Shown here: positions 474 to 32,588 of the stretch, piece by piece | Position numbering within the stretch: the stretch's first letter is position 1 | How the letters are laid out: every line of letters begins with the position of its first letter | Origin: an uncultured Nitriliruptoraceae bacterium | GTDB taxonomy: Bacteria; Actinomycetota; Nitriliruptoria; Nitriliruptorales; Nitriliruptoraceae | Reading direction: 5' to 3' | Assembly: GCA_913060655.1 (NCBI GenBank) | Contig: CAJXTG010000017.1 | Span: forward strand, 1 to 32,588 | DNA: 32,588 nt | The notes under the pieces: model-generated | Told to the model about the DNA's origin: nothing | What the model saw: the letters and a program-made list of their open reading frames with translations, nothing else | The model's database searches: none | Program-made: the position numbers and the translations under genes

Positions 474-854
474 ATGTCGACGCCCGACCCTGCGTCCCGC
501 GACCCGCACCGGTCGCGGACCGTCCCCCCCGGCCCGACCGTGCATCCTGCGGGCACGGCCGTCGCCGCGGCGACGCTCGCGCGGGACGTCGCCGCGGACC
601 CGGAGGCGCTCGGCCGGCTGCTCGCCGACGTCGAGCCGCTGCGGCACGACGCGGACGCGGTCGTCGTCACCGACGCCGACGCGGAGGTCGTGCGGTTCCT
701 CGCCGTGCTCGCCGTCCTCGAGGAGCGGGCGCCGATGCCCGCGTTCGACCCCGACGACCCGGACATGAAGTGGTACGCGCCGAAGGGGGTCGAGGCGATC
801 CCCAACCCGCCGACGATCGTCAGCGGCCCGGGTGCTGCGGCGGGTGACGCGTGA
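474..854 (+). CDS. Small protein of unknown function, coupled to the DHPS homologue
   Basis: 126 residues that I do not recognise. The first 25 residues are Pro/Arg/Ser-rich and probably disordered. Residues 28-90 are Ala/Asp-rich and likely helical. The C-terminal third carries a distinctive stretch, DMKWYAPKGVEAIPNPP, followed by a flexible Gly/Ala end. There is no signal peptide, membrane segment or cysteine. The ATG at 474 has GGAG 6-9 bases upstream. The stop overlaps the GTG of the following folP-like gene by four bases (GTGA), so translation of the two is probably coupled. Third-position GC is as high as in its neighbours, which supports a real gene. A partner or accessory of the folP-like enzyme is inference from coupling only. 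Confidence 0.7.
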   Translation: MSTPDPASRDPHRSRTVPPGPTVHPAGTAVAAATLARDVAADPEALGRLLADVEPLRHDADAVVVTDADAEVVRFLAVLAVLEERAPMPAFDPDDPDMKWYAPKGVEAIPNPPTIVSGPGAAAGDA

Positions 855-1696
855 GCGCCCCCGGAACCGTCGAGCTGCCGGCCGCGCGGCACCACTTCTC
901 GCTCGCGCCGGGCCGGCCGGTCGTGATGGGCATCGTCAACACGAACCCCGGCTCGTTCTCCGACACCGTCCACCTCGCCAGCCTCGACGCGCAGCTCGAG
1001 CGGGCGATGACGCTCGTGGGGGAGGGGGCGGGCATCATCGACGTGGGCACCGACTCCGGCGTCGCCTACGGCCCGTCCGTCCCGCTGGACGAGCAGGTCG
1101 CCGCCGCCGTGCCGCTCGTCGAGGCGCTCGTCGCCGAGGACGTGCCCGTCTCCATCGACACGCCGTACGCCGAGGTCGCCCGCGCGACGCTCGAGGCGGG
1201 GGCGTGCATGATCAACGACGTGTCCGGGCTCGCCGACCTCGAGATCGCGCGCCTGTGCGCCGCCCACGACGCCGCACTGGTCATCCTCCACACGCGGGTG
1301 GGGCACAAGCAGGAGGCGTTCCTCCACTTCGACGACGTCGTCGCCGACATCGAGGACCTGTTCGAGGAGCGCACCGCGATGGCCGTCGCCGAGGGCCTCG
1401 ACCGCAGCCGGGTCGTCCTCGACCCGGGGCTCGGCTACTCGAAGCATCCGGCCGACGACGTCGCACTGCTGCGCGCCTACGACACCTTCATCGCCCGCGG
1501 CCTCGCGATCCTCACCGGCGCGTCGCGCAAGCTGTACTCGGGCGTGATCACCGGCGCGCCGCCGACCGACCGGCTGCCGGAGACGCTCGCGACGGTCGCG
1601 GCGGTGCGCCGCGCCCCCGGCTTCGTGCGGGTGCACGACGTCGGTGCGGTGCGCGCCTACGTCGACGCGGCCGTCGCCGCCGACGCGCGCACGTAG
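851..1696 (+). CDS. folP: Dihydropteroate synthase homologue with altered substrate loops
   Basis: 281-residue TIM-barrel protein of the dihydropteroate synthase (DHPS) family; true DHPS joins pterin pyrophosphate to p-aminobenzoate in folate synthesis. Family marks: MGIVN near residue 26, SIDT, INDVSG, DPGLGYSK, GASRK and the terminal RVHDV. However, loop 1 reads TNPGSFSD instead of the usual VTPDSFSDGG, and loop 2 (residues 64-74) reads DVGTDSGVAYG where active DHPS has GGESTRPG. Those loops hold the substrates, so activity is uncertain; mycobacterial FolP2, an inactive paralogue, also departs from the consensus in loop 2. The GTG start overlaps the stop of the preceding gene. The 3' end overlaps the convergent reductase gene by 40 bases. 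Confidence 0.8.
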   Translation: MSAPGTVELPAARHHFSLAPGRPVVMGIVNTNPGSFSDTVHLASLDAQLERAMTLVGEGAGIIDVGTDSGVAYGPSVPLDEQVAAAVPLVEALVAEDVPVSIDTPYAEVARATLEAGACMINDVSGLADLEIARLCAAHDAALVILHTRVGHKQEAFLHFDDVVADIEDLFEERTAMAVAEGLDRSRVVLDPGLGYSKHPADDVALLRAYDTFIARGLAILTGASRKLYSGVITGAPPTDRLPETLATVAAVRRAPGFVRVHDVGAVRAYVDAAVAADART

Positions 1697-2442
1697 CGCA
1701 GCAGCAGCTCGTCGCCGTCGGCGAGCAGCGCCGACACGAGCGTCAGGTCGCGCCGCGCCGCGGGCGTGTCGGTGCGGGTGAGCCGCAGCCCGTCCCCACC
1801 GACGAGTGCGGGGGCGATCGTCACGAACGCCTCGTCGACGAGGCCGGCGTCGAGCAGCGCCCCGTTGAGCCGCGGCCCGCCCTCGCAGGCGATGCGTGGC
1901 AGTCCGAGGGCGGCGAGCCCGTCGACGGCGGCGCGCCAGTCGAGCGTCGCGTCCCCCGCGACGACCCACCGGATCGCCTCCCCGGCGGGGGTGGGGGTCA
2001 GGGCGGCGCGGACGGTCGGCTCGTCGGCCGCGGCGACGATGACGACCGGCGCGCGCGCCGGGTCGGCGACGAGCGGATGGCCGTCACGCAGCGCGCCGGT
2101 GCGCGTCACCATCGCGACCGGCGGGTCCGCCGCCAGCCCCTTCGCGACCCGTCGCTCCTGCCGGTCCGCACCGCCCGGGTACGGCGGGTAGTCCTCGTCG
2201 CGCACCGTGCCGGCGCCGACGAGCATCACGTCGCACGCGTCGCGCACCCGCGCCAGCGCCTGCTTGTCGGCCGGGCCGCCGAGCCCCTCGGACACGGCCC
2301 GCAGCGTCACCGAGCCGTCCAGGCTCGACACCATGCACAGGGCGACCCACGGTCCGTCGCGCGGCTCCGGCCCCCCGAGGACGAGGTCGGGGTAGATCGC
2401 GTCGAGGCCCTCGACGCGCGCGAGGTGCGCGCCGCCGCTCAG
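1657..2442 (-). CDS. RibD-C / DHFR-fold pyrimidine reductase family protein
   Basis: NADPH-dependent reductase of the RibD C-terminal domain family, either a riboflavin-pathway pyrimidine reductase or, like M. tuberculosis Rv2671 of similar length, an enzyme with dihydrofolate reductase activity. Visible marks are MVSSLDGS, DVMLVGAGTVR, CEGGPRLNGALL and FVTIAPALVGG. The first in-frame ATG (2334) would remove the front of the first beta strand (PWVALCMVSSLDG). The open frame continues upstream without ATG, GTG or TTG, and a CTG at 2440-2442 overlaps the TGA of the upstream hydrolase gene (CTGA). I therefore infer a CTG start giving 261 residues; the conservative start is 2334. Likely co-transcribed with the hydrolase gene. 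Confidence 0.75.
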   Translation of the reverse strand: MSGGAHLARVEGLDAIYPDLVLGGPEPRDGPWVALCMVSSLDGSVTLRAVSEGLGGPADKQALARVRDACDVMLVGAGTVRDEDYPPYPGGADRQERRVAKGLAADPPVAMVTRTGALRDGHPLVADPARAPVVIVAAADEPTVRAALTPTPAGEAIRWVVAGDATLDWRAAVDGLAALGLPRIACEGGPRLNGALLDAGLVDEAFVTIAPALVGGDGLRLTRTDTPAARRDLTLVSALLADGDELLLRYVRASAATAAST

Positions 2443-3209
2443 GTGAGGAACTCGAGCATCGCCGAGGCGACCGCGTCCGGGTCCTCCAGCGGCATCCAGT
2501 GGCCGACACCGGGGATGACCTTCACCCGGCTGACGGGGATGGAGCCCTTCAGCTCCTCGGCCATCGCGATCGGCGTGGAGCGGTCGTGGGAGCCGGCGAT
2601 GATGAGCGTCGGCTGGCCGATCTCGTCACGCGGGATGCGCTCGGCGTCCGCCAGCGCCCGGCACGCCTTCGCGTAGTGCTGCGGCTCGTTGCGGAGGAAC
2701 AGCTCACGCAGCAGCCCGACCATGCCCGGACGGGTCGCGTGGCTGCGCGGGCTGACCGCCCCGTCGAGCCACGCGTCGACGAGCACGTCCATCCCGTCGG
2801 CCTCGACCTGGTCGGCCCGGTCGCGGTACGCGTCGGCGACGGCCGGCTCGAAGTAGGAGATGCCGCCGACGAGGACGAGCTCGTCGACGACGTCGGGGGC
2901 GGAGCGGGCCAGCTCCTGGGCGACGAGGGAGCCGAGCGAGTGGCCCACGAGCGTGACGGGCGGCAGCTCGAGGTGGGCGATGAGCCGCCGGACGTCGTCC
3001 GCCCAGCCGGAGATGGAGAACTTGCCGCGGCCCTGGCTGCGCCCGTGGCCGCGCAGGTCGACGGCGACGCAGTGGTGGTGCTGCTGCAGCGCGCCGACGA
3101 CGCCGTGCCAGATGTGGGCGGACCCGCCGAGGCCGTGGAGGAGGACGACCGGAGGGCCCTCGCCGGCGCTCGTGTAGTGGAGGGTGTTGCCGTCGATGTC
3201 CGCGAACAC
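2439..3209 (-). CDS. Alpha/beta-fold hydrolase
   Basis: 256-residue alpha/beta hydrolase, probably a cytoplasmic esterase or lactonase-like enzyme of unknown substrate. Near the N-terminus are the oxyanion motif HGLGGS and the strand VAVDLRGHGRS. The nucleophile elbow is GHSLGS. An acid lies in IIAGSHDRSTP and the catalytic His in GVGHWMPLE near the C-terminus. The GTG at 3209 is chosen because GGAAGG lies 8-13 bases upstream and the fold begins at once (FADIDGNTLHYTSAGEGP). Its stop overlaps the inferred CTG start of the reductase gene by four bases, suggesting a two-gene operon. A TACGCT -10-like box lies about 53 bases upstream. Confidence 0.9.
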   Translation of the reverse strand: MFADIDGNTLHYTSAGEGPPVVLLHGLGGSAHIWHGVVGALQQHHHCVAVDLRGHGRSQGRGKFSISGWADDVRRLIAHLELPPVTLVGHSLGSLVAQELARSAPDVVDELVLVGGISYFEPAVADAYRDRADQVEADGMDVLVDAWLDGAVSPRSHATRPGMVGLLRELFLRNEPQHYAKACRALADAERIPRDEIGQPTLIIAGSHDRSTPIAMAEELKGSIPVSRVKVIPGVGHWMPLEDPDAVASAMLEFLT

Positions 3210-4899: not shown

Positions 4900-6432
4900 G
4901 TGCTCGAGCTCTCCACCATCGACGGGCTGCTGGCCGCCGACGCGACGGCGCTGCTCGTCGTCGCGGCCACCGCCGCGCCCTCCGCCACCGAGGACGGCGC
5001 CGACGGCGCCACCGAGCCCCGGCCGCCGTCGCCGCAGGCCGGCGCCGCCGACGTGCTCGGCACCGCCGGTGCGGCGCTGCTCGCCACCCTCGGCTTCGAC
5101 GCGGCCGCCGGCGCGACCGTCCGGCTCGTCGCCCCCGACGGGCCCGCCGCCGGCCGGCCGATCCTCGTCGTCGGGCTCGGCGACGCCGCCGAGGTGACCC
5201 CGGCGACGCTGCGCCGCGCGGCCGGCGCGGCCGTGCGCGCCGCCGGCGACGCCGCCACCCTCGTCACCGACCTCGCGACGGTGCCCACCGGCGACGCGGA
5301 CCCCGCGGAGGTCCTCACCGCGGTCGCGGAGGGCCTGCTGCTCGCCGACTACCGCTTCGACACGTACCGGACGAAGGCGCGGCCGGCCCGCACCACCGCG
5401 GCGCTGCTCGTCCCGCCCGCCGACGTCGACGCGGACACGACGCTCGACCGGGCGCGCGTCGGTGTCGAGGCGGCCCGCTGGGTGCGCGACCTCGTCAACA
5501 CCGCGCCGCGGGACAAGCGGCCGCCGCTGCTCGCCGACCTCGTCGCCGAGGGCGTCGCCGACGACGACGTGCACGTGCGGGTGCTCGACGAGCACGCCCT
5601 CGCCGACGGCGGCTACGGCGGCATCCTCGGCGTCGGTGGCGGGTCGACGATGAAGCCGCGGCTCGTCGAGCTGCGCTGGCAGCCCGAGGGGGCGCAGCGG
5701 CACGTCGCGCTCGTCGGCAAGGGCATCACGTTCGACACCGGCGGCTACTCGCTGAAGCCGACGTCCGGGCAGGAGACCATGCGCATGGACATGGCCGGCG
5801 CGGCGACCGCCGCCGCCGTCGTGCGCGCCGCCGCACGCCTGCGCCTGCCCGTCGCCGTCAGCGCCGTGCTGTGCCTCGCGGAGAACATGATCTCCGGTGA
5901 CGCGCAGCGCGTCAGCGACGTCATCACCATGCGGGACGGCACGACCGTCGAGGTGATGAACACCGACGCGGAGGGGCGCCTCGTGCTCGGCGACGGGCTC
6001 GCCCACGCCGTCGAGCTCGGCGCCGACACCATCCTCGACGTCGCCACCCTCACCGGCGCGGTCATCGTCGCGCTGGGGGACCGCATCGGCGGGGTGATGG
6101 CGAACGACGACGCGCTCGCCGCGGAGCTGATCGCGACCGGACGCGACGTCGACGAGCCGCTGTGGCAGCTGCCCCTCGCGACGGCCGAGTACGGGTCGCG
6201 CGTCGACGGCGTGTTCGCCGACCTGCGCAACGTCGGCACCCCCAAGGACCCGGGGACGGTGTTCGGCGCGCTGTTCCTCGCCCGGTTCGTGCCCGACCAC
6301 GTCCGCTGGGCGCACCTCGACATCGCCGGGGTCGCGTGGCGGGACGCCGTCGACCCGCTGCACCGCAAGGGTGGGACGGGTGTGCCCACCCGCACGCTCG
6401 TCGCGTGGCTGGAGGGCCTCAGCCGCGACTGA
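4900..6432 (+). CDS. pepA: Leucyl aminopeptidase (M17 family)
   Basis: 510-residue cytosolic metallo-aminopeptidase that removes N-terminal residues during peptide turnover; the family forms hexamers with two metal ions. The N-terminal macro-like domain spans roughly residues 1-170. The catalytic domain carries VGKGITFDTGG (Lys274, Asp279), Lys286, Asp297 in MDMAGAA, and NTDAEGRLVLGD (Asp356, Glu358, Arg360). The spacing equals that of E. coli PepA, so all ligands are present. GTG at 4900 is chosen because AGGTG precedes it and the protein then begins at the N-terminal domain. Its last 14 bases overlap the convergent thioesterase gene. Confidence 0.95.
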   Translation: MLELSTIDGLLAADATALLVVAATAAPSATEDGADGATEPRPPSPQAGAADVLGTAGAALLATLGFDAAAGATVRLVAPDGPAAGRPILVVGLGDAAEVTPATLRRAAGAAVRAAGDAATLVTDLATVPTGDADPAEVLTAVAEGLLLADYRFDTYRTKARPARTTAALLVPPADVDADTTLDRARVGVEAARWVRDLVNTAPRDKRPPLLADLVAEGVADDDVHVRVLDEHALADGGYGGILGVGGGSTMKPRLVELRWQPEGAQRHVALVGKGITFDTGGYSLKPTSGQETMRMDMAGAATAAAVVRAAARLRLPVAVSAVLCLAENMISGDAQRVSDVITMRDGTTVEVMNTDAEGRLVLGDGLAHAVELGADTILDVATLTGAVIVALGDRIGGVMANDDALAAELIATGRDVDEPLWQLPLATAEYGSRVDGVFADLRNVGTPKDPGTVFGALFLARFVPDHVRWAHLDIAGVAWRDAVDPLHRKGGTGVPTRTLVAWLEGLSRD

Positions 6433-6817
6433 GACCGGCGAGGAACCGCTCGCGGTCGACGAGCATCCGCCGGTGCCGCACCCGGGCGACCGTGTCGCCG
6501 TCGTGCTCGACGTTCACCGTGAACTCGAGGCGGCGGCCGTGATGGCCGACGAGCGTCGCGTGCGCGCACACGGTGCTGCCGACCGCGACCGGCTGCAGAT
6601 GCTCGACCTCCGACCAGGTGCCCACGCTCGTCTCCGCGTCGGCGAGGTCGTCGGCGACGGCGTCGCAGCAGGCGGCCTCGGCGAGGGCCAGCAGCGTCGG
6701 CGTGGCGAGCACCTCGACGTCACCGGAGCCGACGGTCGACGCGGTGTGGTCGTCGGCGACGGTCAACGTCCGGTCGTGCTTCAGGCCCGGGTCGCAGCGG
6801 CGCGAGGAGGACGGCAT
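6419..6817 (-). CDS. FlK-like hotdog thioesterase with intact Thr-Glu-His
   Basis: 132-residue hotdog protein of the fluoroacetyl-CoA thioesterase (FlK)-like family, expected to hydrolyse a small acyl-CoA or to bind it. Thr39, Glu47 (LLALAEAA) and His73 (SEVEHLQPVAVG) have exactly the 8- and 26-residue spacing of FlK Thr42/Glu50/His76. GHHGRRLEFTV and the terminal strand HDGDTVARVRHRRMLVD complete the fold. The substrate is unlikely to be fluoroacetate; related actinobacterial proteins are uncharacterised. The ATG at 6817 has AGGACC 8-13 bases before it. Its 3' end overlaps pepA by 14 bases. It is divergent from the membrane protein gene. Confidence 0.85.
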   Translation of the reverse strand: MPSSSRRCDPGLKHDRTLTVADDHTASTVGSGDVEVLATPTLLALAEAACCDAVADDLADAETSVGTWSEVEHLQPVAVGSTVCAHATLVGHHGRRLEFTVNVEHDGDTVARVRHRRMLVDRERFLAGLSRG

Positions 6818-6860
6818 GGTGGCGAGGTCCTGTCCATCGGGGCCGCGGTCCGGTCGGACG

Positions 6861-6870
6861 GTGACGTCAC
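6861..6870. promoter_or_regulatory. Perfect 10-base palindrome, possible operator
   Basis: GTGACGTCAC lies between the FlK-like start (6817) and the divergent -10 boxes near 6903, in the leader of the thioesterase gene. In DNA of this composition such a palindrome can arise by chance. Confidence 0.2.
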
Positions 6871-6901
6871 GAGGCGGTGCGGTCCGTACGGGTGCGGTCG
6901 G

Positions 6902-6907
6902 TAGCGT
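6902..6907 (+). promoter_or_regulatory. Putative -10 box (TAGCGT) for the membrane protein gene
   Basis: Hexamer 94 bases upstream of the ATG at 7002. It overlaps a − strand TACGCT (6903-6908) that would serve the FlK-like gene 85 bases away, giving a bidirectional promoter. Confidence 0.35.
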
Positions 6908-7001
6908 AGCCGTCGCCGAGCGGACCCCACGGTCCGGTGCGGCCGCGGTGCGGCGTCCGCGCCGTGCCGGCCCCCGCGACCCGCGACCCCGGAGACGTCC
7001 C

Positions 7002-31143: not shown

Positions 31144-31146
31144 GCT
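31141..31146 (+). promoter_or_regulatory. Putative -10 box (TAGGCT) for the sortase-like gene
   Basis: The hexamer shares its TAG with the metZ stop codon and lies 43 bases before the GTG at 31190. Confidence 0.45.
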
Positions 31147-31189
31147 TCCCGCGCCGGTCGGAGTGGACGCGAGGCGAGGAGGTCGGGCG

Positions 31190-32278
31190 GTGGCGCAGCA
31201 GGACGGCCACCCCGGGAGCGGGCCGACGCTGCCGGCCTTCGATGCGGTGCAGGCCCGGCTGGACGCGCTGCTGGAACGCACCGCCGTTCCGCCCCCCGCG
31301 CCCGCCCCTGCGCCGGCACCCGAGCCGGAGCCCGCGCCAGAGCCCGCGCCCGAGCCCGAGCCGGCGCCTGAGCCCGAGCCGGAGCCCGCTCCCGAGCCAG
31401 CGCGGGCACCTGAGCCCGAGCCGGCACCTGAGCCCGAGCCGGTGCCCGCTCCCGAGCCAGCGCCGGCACCTGAGCCCGAGCCCGCACCGGCGCGCGCGCC
31501 ACGGGTCACGCTCCCGCGCCCGAGGTTCCCGACGGTGCGCTTCCCGCGCCTGCCTCGCCCGGAGATCCGGCTCCCGCGCCCGTCACGTCGTCTTGCCGTG
31601 ATCGTCGCGGGGGCGGCCGGGGCCGTCGTCCTCGCCGTCCTCGTCGCCGTCGTGATTGTGCGCAGCGCCGACGCACCCTCCGGTGGCGCGTCGGCGGGCG
31701 ACGGCGCAGGCGGGCCGGAGGCGGTCGCGCCGGCCACGGAGGTGCAGTTCCCGGAGGTCGCAGCGGATGCGGAGCCGGCGGAGCCGCGCATCCGTCCGGT
31801 CGGGGTCCGGAGCACCGAGCTCGCGCTGGAGACATCGGTGGTCGGCGCGATCGATCTGCCGACGTGCGACGGACCGACGGGGACGGAGGGGACCGATCGT
31901 GCGCGCTGGTTCGACCCCGGTGACGGGGCGGCGGGTCGGGCCGTCGCACCCGGCGAGCACGGCGTCGCGGTCATCGTCGGAGCTGCCGCGCTCGCGGACA
32001 CCGACGCCACCACCGACGGTGCGGAAGGCGCCGAATCAGCTGGGCCGATGGCCGGGCTCGGCATGGCGGTGGAGGGCACACTGTTCGAGGTGGCGCGCAT
32101 CGACGGGACGGTGCTGCGCTGGCGGGCGGTCGACGTGGTCCGCCTGCCCGTCGGCACGCCGTTCCCCGAGGCGGTGCTCAGCCCGGCGGCGGAACAGCGG
32201 CTGCTCCTCGTCGCCTGCGGCGCACGGGTCGACGGAGGGACGGCCGACGTCTACGTGCTGGCGCTGCGCGCCCGCTGA
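31190..32278 (+). CDS. Membrane protein with Pro-Glu repeats and degenerate sortase-like domain
   Basis: 362 residues. A short helix ([17 protein letters not shown], 14-30) is followed by a Pro/Glu/Ala repeat region (34-102), a Pro/Arg-rich stretch (103-134) and one membrane helix (~135-158), leaving the C-terminal domain outside the cell. That domain (~188-362) matches class E/F sortases in order: [37 protein letters not shown], a [20 protein letters not shown] strand pair, and LLLVACGA with the Cys343 position. The catalytic His after VIVG is replaced by Ala265, so transpeptidase activity is unlikely. GTG at 31190 has GAGGAGG upstream; a GTG at 31163 is also in frame. Confidence 0.7.
31289..31495 (+). 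repeat. Degenerate Pro-Glu-Pro-Ala coding repeat
   Basis: About 69 codons of PEPAPEP-type units in the sortase-like gene, built on a recurring GAGCCCGAGCC core. The rigid, extended, highly charged region lies on the predicted cytoplasmic side of the membrane helix. Confidence 0.85.
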
Positions 32279-32294
32279 GCAGGCTGCGCGCGCG

Positions 32295-32588
32295 TCAGTC
32301 GCCGGCCTCGAGCTCACCGATGCGGGTGTGCTCCGCGCCGGCCTCGGCGAGGATTCGATCCGCGCCGTTGACCGGCTGCGACACGCGGACGATCGTCTGG
32401 TCGAGGTGGCTGCGCGCGTCCGACAGGGCGTTCACCATCCGGCCCTGCAGCTCGTTCGCCTCCGCGACGATCGTCTGGACCCAGCGGCGCTGCTCCTCGA
32501 TGGTGGTGAGCATCGCGTCGCGACGCTCCTCCGCCTGCTCGAGCAGCTGCTCCCGGTCCCGCATCGTCTGCTCGCGCAGCCGCGCGGC
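32295..32588 (-). CDS. C-terminal part of a coiled-coil protein (5' end outside window)
   Basis: About 97 residues are visible, ending in RIGELEAGD. The frame is open to the window edge (AARLREQT precedes the first ATG at 32564, which has no ribosome binding site), so the gene very probably begins beyond the window. The sequence is almost entirely charged heptad-like helix (REQLLEQAEERRDAMLTTIEEQRR, VAEANELQGRM), as in DivIVA-like, membrane-fusion or cell-division scaffold proteins. No domain can be named. It converges on the sortase-like gene with a 16-base gap. Confidence 0.7.
   Translation of the reverse strand, partial: AARLREQTMRDREQLLEQAEERRDAMLTTIEEQRRWVQTIVAEANELQGRMVNALSDARSHLDQTIVRVSQPVNGADRILAEAGAEHTRIGELEAGD

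Follow-up and report, generated by a model that had tools for sequence, protein, structure and literature searches.

Close to one end of the window, by which we mean the whole 32,588-nucleotide stretch of DNA analysed, lies an open reading frame whose product resembles a sortase that has lost its catalytic histidine. The locus thus raises the question of whether the frame is a gene at all, whether its product is genuinely related to sortases and, if so, what a sortase homologue of this kind might be.

The coding status of the frame was considered first from base composition. Open frames are cheap at 76% GC, which makes the frame on its own weak evidence. However, the in-frame GC content of the three codon positions is 0.86/0.62/0.86 over the whole frame and 0.82/0.57/0.87 over the ectodomain, a ribosome site stands before the start, and homology extends across the whole C-terminal domain. 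Together these indicate that the frame is probably a real gene. A cystathionine-synthase-like gene lies upstream on the same strand, with its stop 46 bases before the start of the sortase-homologue gene. The coordinates of the gene and its features are collected in Table 1.

Table 1. Features of the sortase-homologue gene and its product, in window coordinates
Feature	Position	Strand	Basis
Probable Shine-Dalgarno sequence GAGGAGG, 7 bases before GTG	31176..31182	+	read from sequence
Probable gene for a degenerate class F sortase homologue, 362 aa	31190..32278	+	GTG start, TGA stop; open frame, codon-position GC, class F homology
Pro/Glu/Ala-rich cytoplasmic stretch, residues 34-104	31289..31501	+	composition; tandem periodicity of 12/18/42 bases
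Arg/Pro-rich juxtamembrane segment, residues 108-132	31511..31585	+	sequence composition
Single membrane helix, about residues 135-158	31592..31663	+	hydropathy peak
Extracellular part, residues 184-362, with degenerate sortase domain (profile envelope 196-356)	31739..32275	+	NCBIfam, profile, alignment, AF2, PDB matches
Cys226 (TGC), second cysteine	31865..31867	+	absent from 119/119 homologous domains
Ala265 (GCT), position of the catalytic His	31982..31984	+	profile and multiple alignments
Cys343 (TGC), position of the catalytic Cys; preceded by Ala342, not the usual Thr	32216..32218	+	alignments

The predicted protein begins with a short N-terminus, followed by a Pro/Glu/Ala stretch and an Arg/Pro stretch; a single membrane helix then leads to an extracellular part of ∼200 residues. 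The ∼70-residue PEPA stretch and the charged Pro/Arg stretch that the first-pass annotation had placed before the helix are both present, the former consisting of Pro, Glu and Ala interspersed with occasional Arg and Val residues. The best 19-residue hydropathy window begins at residue 138 (mean 2.95), and the Arg/Pro segment, following the positive-inside rule, places the N-terminus inside the cell. On our preferred reading of all the evidence, which we consider fairly probable, the product is a type II membrane protein. Several matches were rejected: those to Pfam M50 (E = 0.068) and PARP, and the phmmer matches of the Pro-rich tail to PDB entries, were put down to low complexity or chance, and a 52% match to the N-terminus in a congener (genome G003, contig C54) was antisense to a glycosyltransferase-like gene.

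The extracellular domain is a divergent class F sortase homologue, as judged from sequence similarity above chance. The NCBIfam class F sortase model (class_F_sortase, NF033748) matched residues 192-349 with E = 1.4e-6 and 28 bits; its cut-off of 166 bits is strict, since the two intact class F sortases encoded elsewhere in the same genome, at 147 and 125 bits, also score under it. The Pfam sortase model PF04203 gave no match in the 362-residue protein up to E = 10, and when searched against the whole genome it matched the two intact paralogues only. A profile of our own, built from 10 related sortases, scored the protein at 31.1 bits; of 1,819 scored shuffles that preserved its composition, none exceeded 11.5 bits, and the reversed sequence gave -0.8. 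In tblastn searches the best-matching segments, 34-38% identical, belong to intact class F sortases encoded in this genome and in others of the genus. The sortase-derived domain without the histidine, as proposed earlier, is supported by the profile searches, by the survey of 119 domains and by the fold match of modest confidence described below. The WFDPG motif (residues 240-244), VAVIVG followed by Ala265, and LLLVACGA containing Cys343 were all found where they had been described. The proposed mixture of class E and class F patterns held for its class F part, the similarity being to class F; the class E part fell away.

A structure of the ectodomain was predicted with AF2, using an alignment of 20 class F sortase homologues from viral contigs. 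Confidence in the model is modest (pLDDT 64.8, pTM 0.65), and its first strands are unresolved. All of the top 50 PDB matches of the model are sortases (probability 1.00; TM scores by target length ∼0.38-0.59), so the predicted fold does match that of sortases; since the alignment consists of sortases, this match is supportive rather than independent. Folding of the single sequence without an alignment was uninformative (pLDDT 37.4), and no significant match to the model was found in a viral structure library. The eight-stranded sortase barrel may still fold.

The transpeptidase reaction of sortases requires a Cys-His couple. The corresponding positions were compared with those of 119 other sortase domains, most of which came from 61 genomes covered by the class F search. 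Both a HMMER profile of the 119 homologues and a MAFFT alignment with 20 homologues place Ala265 opposite the catalytic histidine, which normally ends the AVIAGH strand, and one local MAFFT run places Asp270 there instead, which is likewise not a histidine. The other domains carry the histidine in 119/119 cases, the cysteine in 119/119 and the threonine before the cysteine in 117/119. The replacement of the histidine by Ala265, suggested from the start, is therefore upheld by the profile alignments. Cys343 is retained in the TLxTC-type strand position and its following Gly is kept, whereas further residues are lost: Val-Asp after the histidine, Lys ahead of the FP motif, and both Tyr and Asn after the cysteine. 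A longer loop rich in Ala, Asp, Thr and Gly replaces the HVD loop. Residues that form the barrel (PG, W, DG and LxL-C) are largely kept while those of the active site are lost. There is no Arg at +4 to +16 of Cys343, an absence that is not diagnostic, since 24 of the 119 homologues, all with the histidine, have none at +7 to +13 either.

A histidine elsewhere might in principle take over, and the idea of an enzyme that still uses its cysteine, with another catalytic base or an altered activity, has in its favour that Cys343 and its Gly sit in the right strand. However, the usual histidine is universal in the 119 homologues, and the sole other histidine of the ectodomain, His257, lies eight residues upstream of Ala265 and precedes the strand (model residues 75-82) that ends at Ala265; from its far end it should not reach the active site. 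The model thus suggests that no nearby histidine fills the site; the first-pass annotation had named such a histidine as grounds against its reading. We regard an active enzyme as very improbable. Equally, the histidine might be hidden by an assembly or sequencing error: the gene is known from one draft assembly, of 82 contigs, and ends 310 bases from the end of its contig. Yet two base changes would be needed to turn GCT into a His codon, no other frame restores the GHVDS motif nearby, so that the loss is not due to a frameshift, and other conserved positions have been lost independently. An error is, to our minds, the most far-fetched of the explanations considered.

With the histidine replaced by alanine and the Thr, the HVD loop, the Lys and the Tyr gone, the protein should not cleave or anchor sorting signals, and transpeptidase activity has probably been lost, to judge from these residues. 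The explanation that we favour, and hold with reasonable though not full confidence, is that the ectodomain is paralogous to the class F sortases of its own lineage but catalytically dead and fast-evolving. A class F sortase gene would have been duplicated or transferred and then released from catalytic constraint, which fits a long branch, a single-species distribution and losses around the active site. The end branch of the protein measures 4.58 changes per column, where the median is 0.21, and its length makes the placement in the tree unreliable. Among 101 relatives and 66 genomes of the class, the gene was found in the source genome only; a scan of GTDB contigs, which reaches close relatives only, likewise found no relative of the gene. 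In two congeners, whose neighbouring genes are 83-84% identical, an AEC-type transporter and a threonine dehydratase occupy the locus instead, and the congeners' threonine dehydratase has no close match in the source genome.

Whatever role remains to such a dead paralogue is likely to be passive: either none, with drift after duplication, or weak binding or tethering at the membrane. With its frame intact and its core pattern surviving, the gene leaves room for the latter. These two fates, decay and retention as a scaffold, are both fates of a dead paralogue and so overlap with the explanation we favour. In the first, a duplicated or transferred sortase gene has lost its function and has simply not yet acquired a stop codon. 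The very long branch, the single-species distribution and the loss of the His, Thr, Lys, Tyr and other conserved residues agree with such early decay, and chance stops are rare at this GC content (1-5 per alternative frame over 363 codons). Simple decay is, however, argued against by 362 intact codons, a ribosome site, coding-type GC at the codon positions and a conserved hydrophobic core pattern, and we treat it as a serious contender that falls somewhat short of an even chance.

In the second, the protein would be a functional pseudosortase, a scaffold or sensor of the envelope whose ligands would be sorting signals, wall precursors or a sortase, and its Pro-rich tail would report to the cytoplasm. 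The intact frame, the ribosome site and the barrel-forming residues, largely kept despite the active-site losses, speak for it, but no orthologue occurs in the other genomes searched, the branch is very long, no partner gene is adjacent, and two sister species have no such gene at the locus. We consider this unlikely. A more specific form, in which a non-catalytic class F domain has been retained as a scaffold at the membrane or a sensor of the envelope and may be locked by a disulfide between Cys226 and Cys343 in place of catalysis, appears more doubtful still, though the two cysteines may pair. The scaffold or sensor role put forward in the first-pass annotation is therefore possible but unsupported: the gene is confined to one species, on an extremely long branch, and an intact sortase carries a similar tail.

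Other features of the locus and its surroundings may be recorded here. The interval 31144-32294 of the window has been remodelled relative to the two sister species (locus L045, 3027-5051, and locus L044, 446-2483). Beyond the gene, on the minus strand, 32295-32588 holds the C-terminal end of a coiled-coil protein that looks DivIVA-like by eye and is cut by the contig end; a 368-residue homologue of it is encoded in genome G002 (L045:5104-6210). For Gram-positive anchors (PF00746), nothing in the genome exceeded the cut-off, and most control genomes gave weak matches too. In the congener G003, a class F sortase lies next to a secreted protein on the minus strand, at about 5371-7000 of locus L046 (G003:C73:5000-14000), between typA and a cystathionine-synthase-like gene, where the window has neither. 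The secreted protein carries a VVHGVPDL motif (DUF4397-like by eye) and a C-terminal membrane anchor, and the two could possibly be a sortase-substrate pair. Class F sortase relatives are also encoded on 23 IMG/VR contigs (L163-L185), with His and Cys intact where fully read.

Pseudoenzymes are known in many families. Among 5.39 million open papers no pseudosortase was found described; the words 'inactive sortase' occurred only in two papers on Lactococcus pili, once in each. Were a function shown for a degenerate sortase it would thus be new, and a sortase domain in which the histidine is replaced and the cysteine kept would be a natural test of the reuse of sortases as binding modules. As found, in one draft genome and without orthologues, it is a small and cautious addition.

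Class F sortases were first described in Propionibacterium acnes and their physiological role is unknown (PMC13251363). The degenerate homologue shares with them the type II topology, the pattern P..., W(F/Y), PG..G, DG, LxLxxCG and the position of the cysteine; in contrast to them, it has neither the His, nor the Thr before the Cys, nor the Lys and Tyr, and it has the extra Cys226. A similar layout is seen in the first of two tandem intact class F sortases in the congener (about 600-3092 of locus L051, G003:C62:18000-23000; also L054), which adjoin a gene that appears Bax-inhibitor-like by eye. That sortase, too, has a Pro/Ala-rich cytoplasmic tail, one helix and a class F ectodomain, so the Pro-rich tail is not special to the degenerate homologue. 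It differs in its complete AGHVDS and LITCGG motifs, in its genomic place and in a much longer tail, which is rich in Ala, Thr and Arg and in Pro and contains a masked stretch. Both tandem sortases rank among the best tblastn matches (E = 1.5e-4 for the first and 1.2e-6 for its neighbour). A C-terminal sortase domain behind a long N-terminal region is also found in the class E SrtE of Actinoplanes missouriensis (AMIS_500; 792 residues, sortase domain 575-775) (PMC13251363), although SrtE is an active class E enzyme. Given this layout and the congener's tail, a long region before the sortase domain is not unusual. Finally, A. missouriensis showed no phenotypic change when its four class F sortases were all deleted (PMC13251363), so that class F sortases can be dispensable even when intact.
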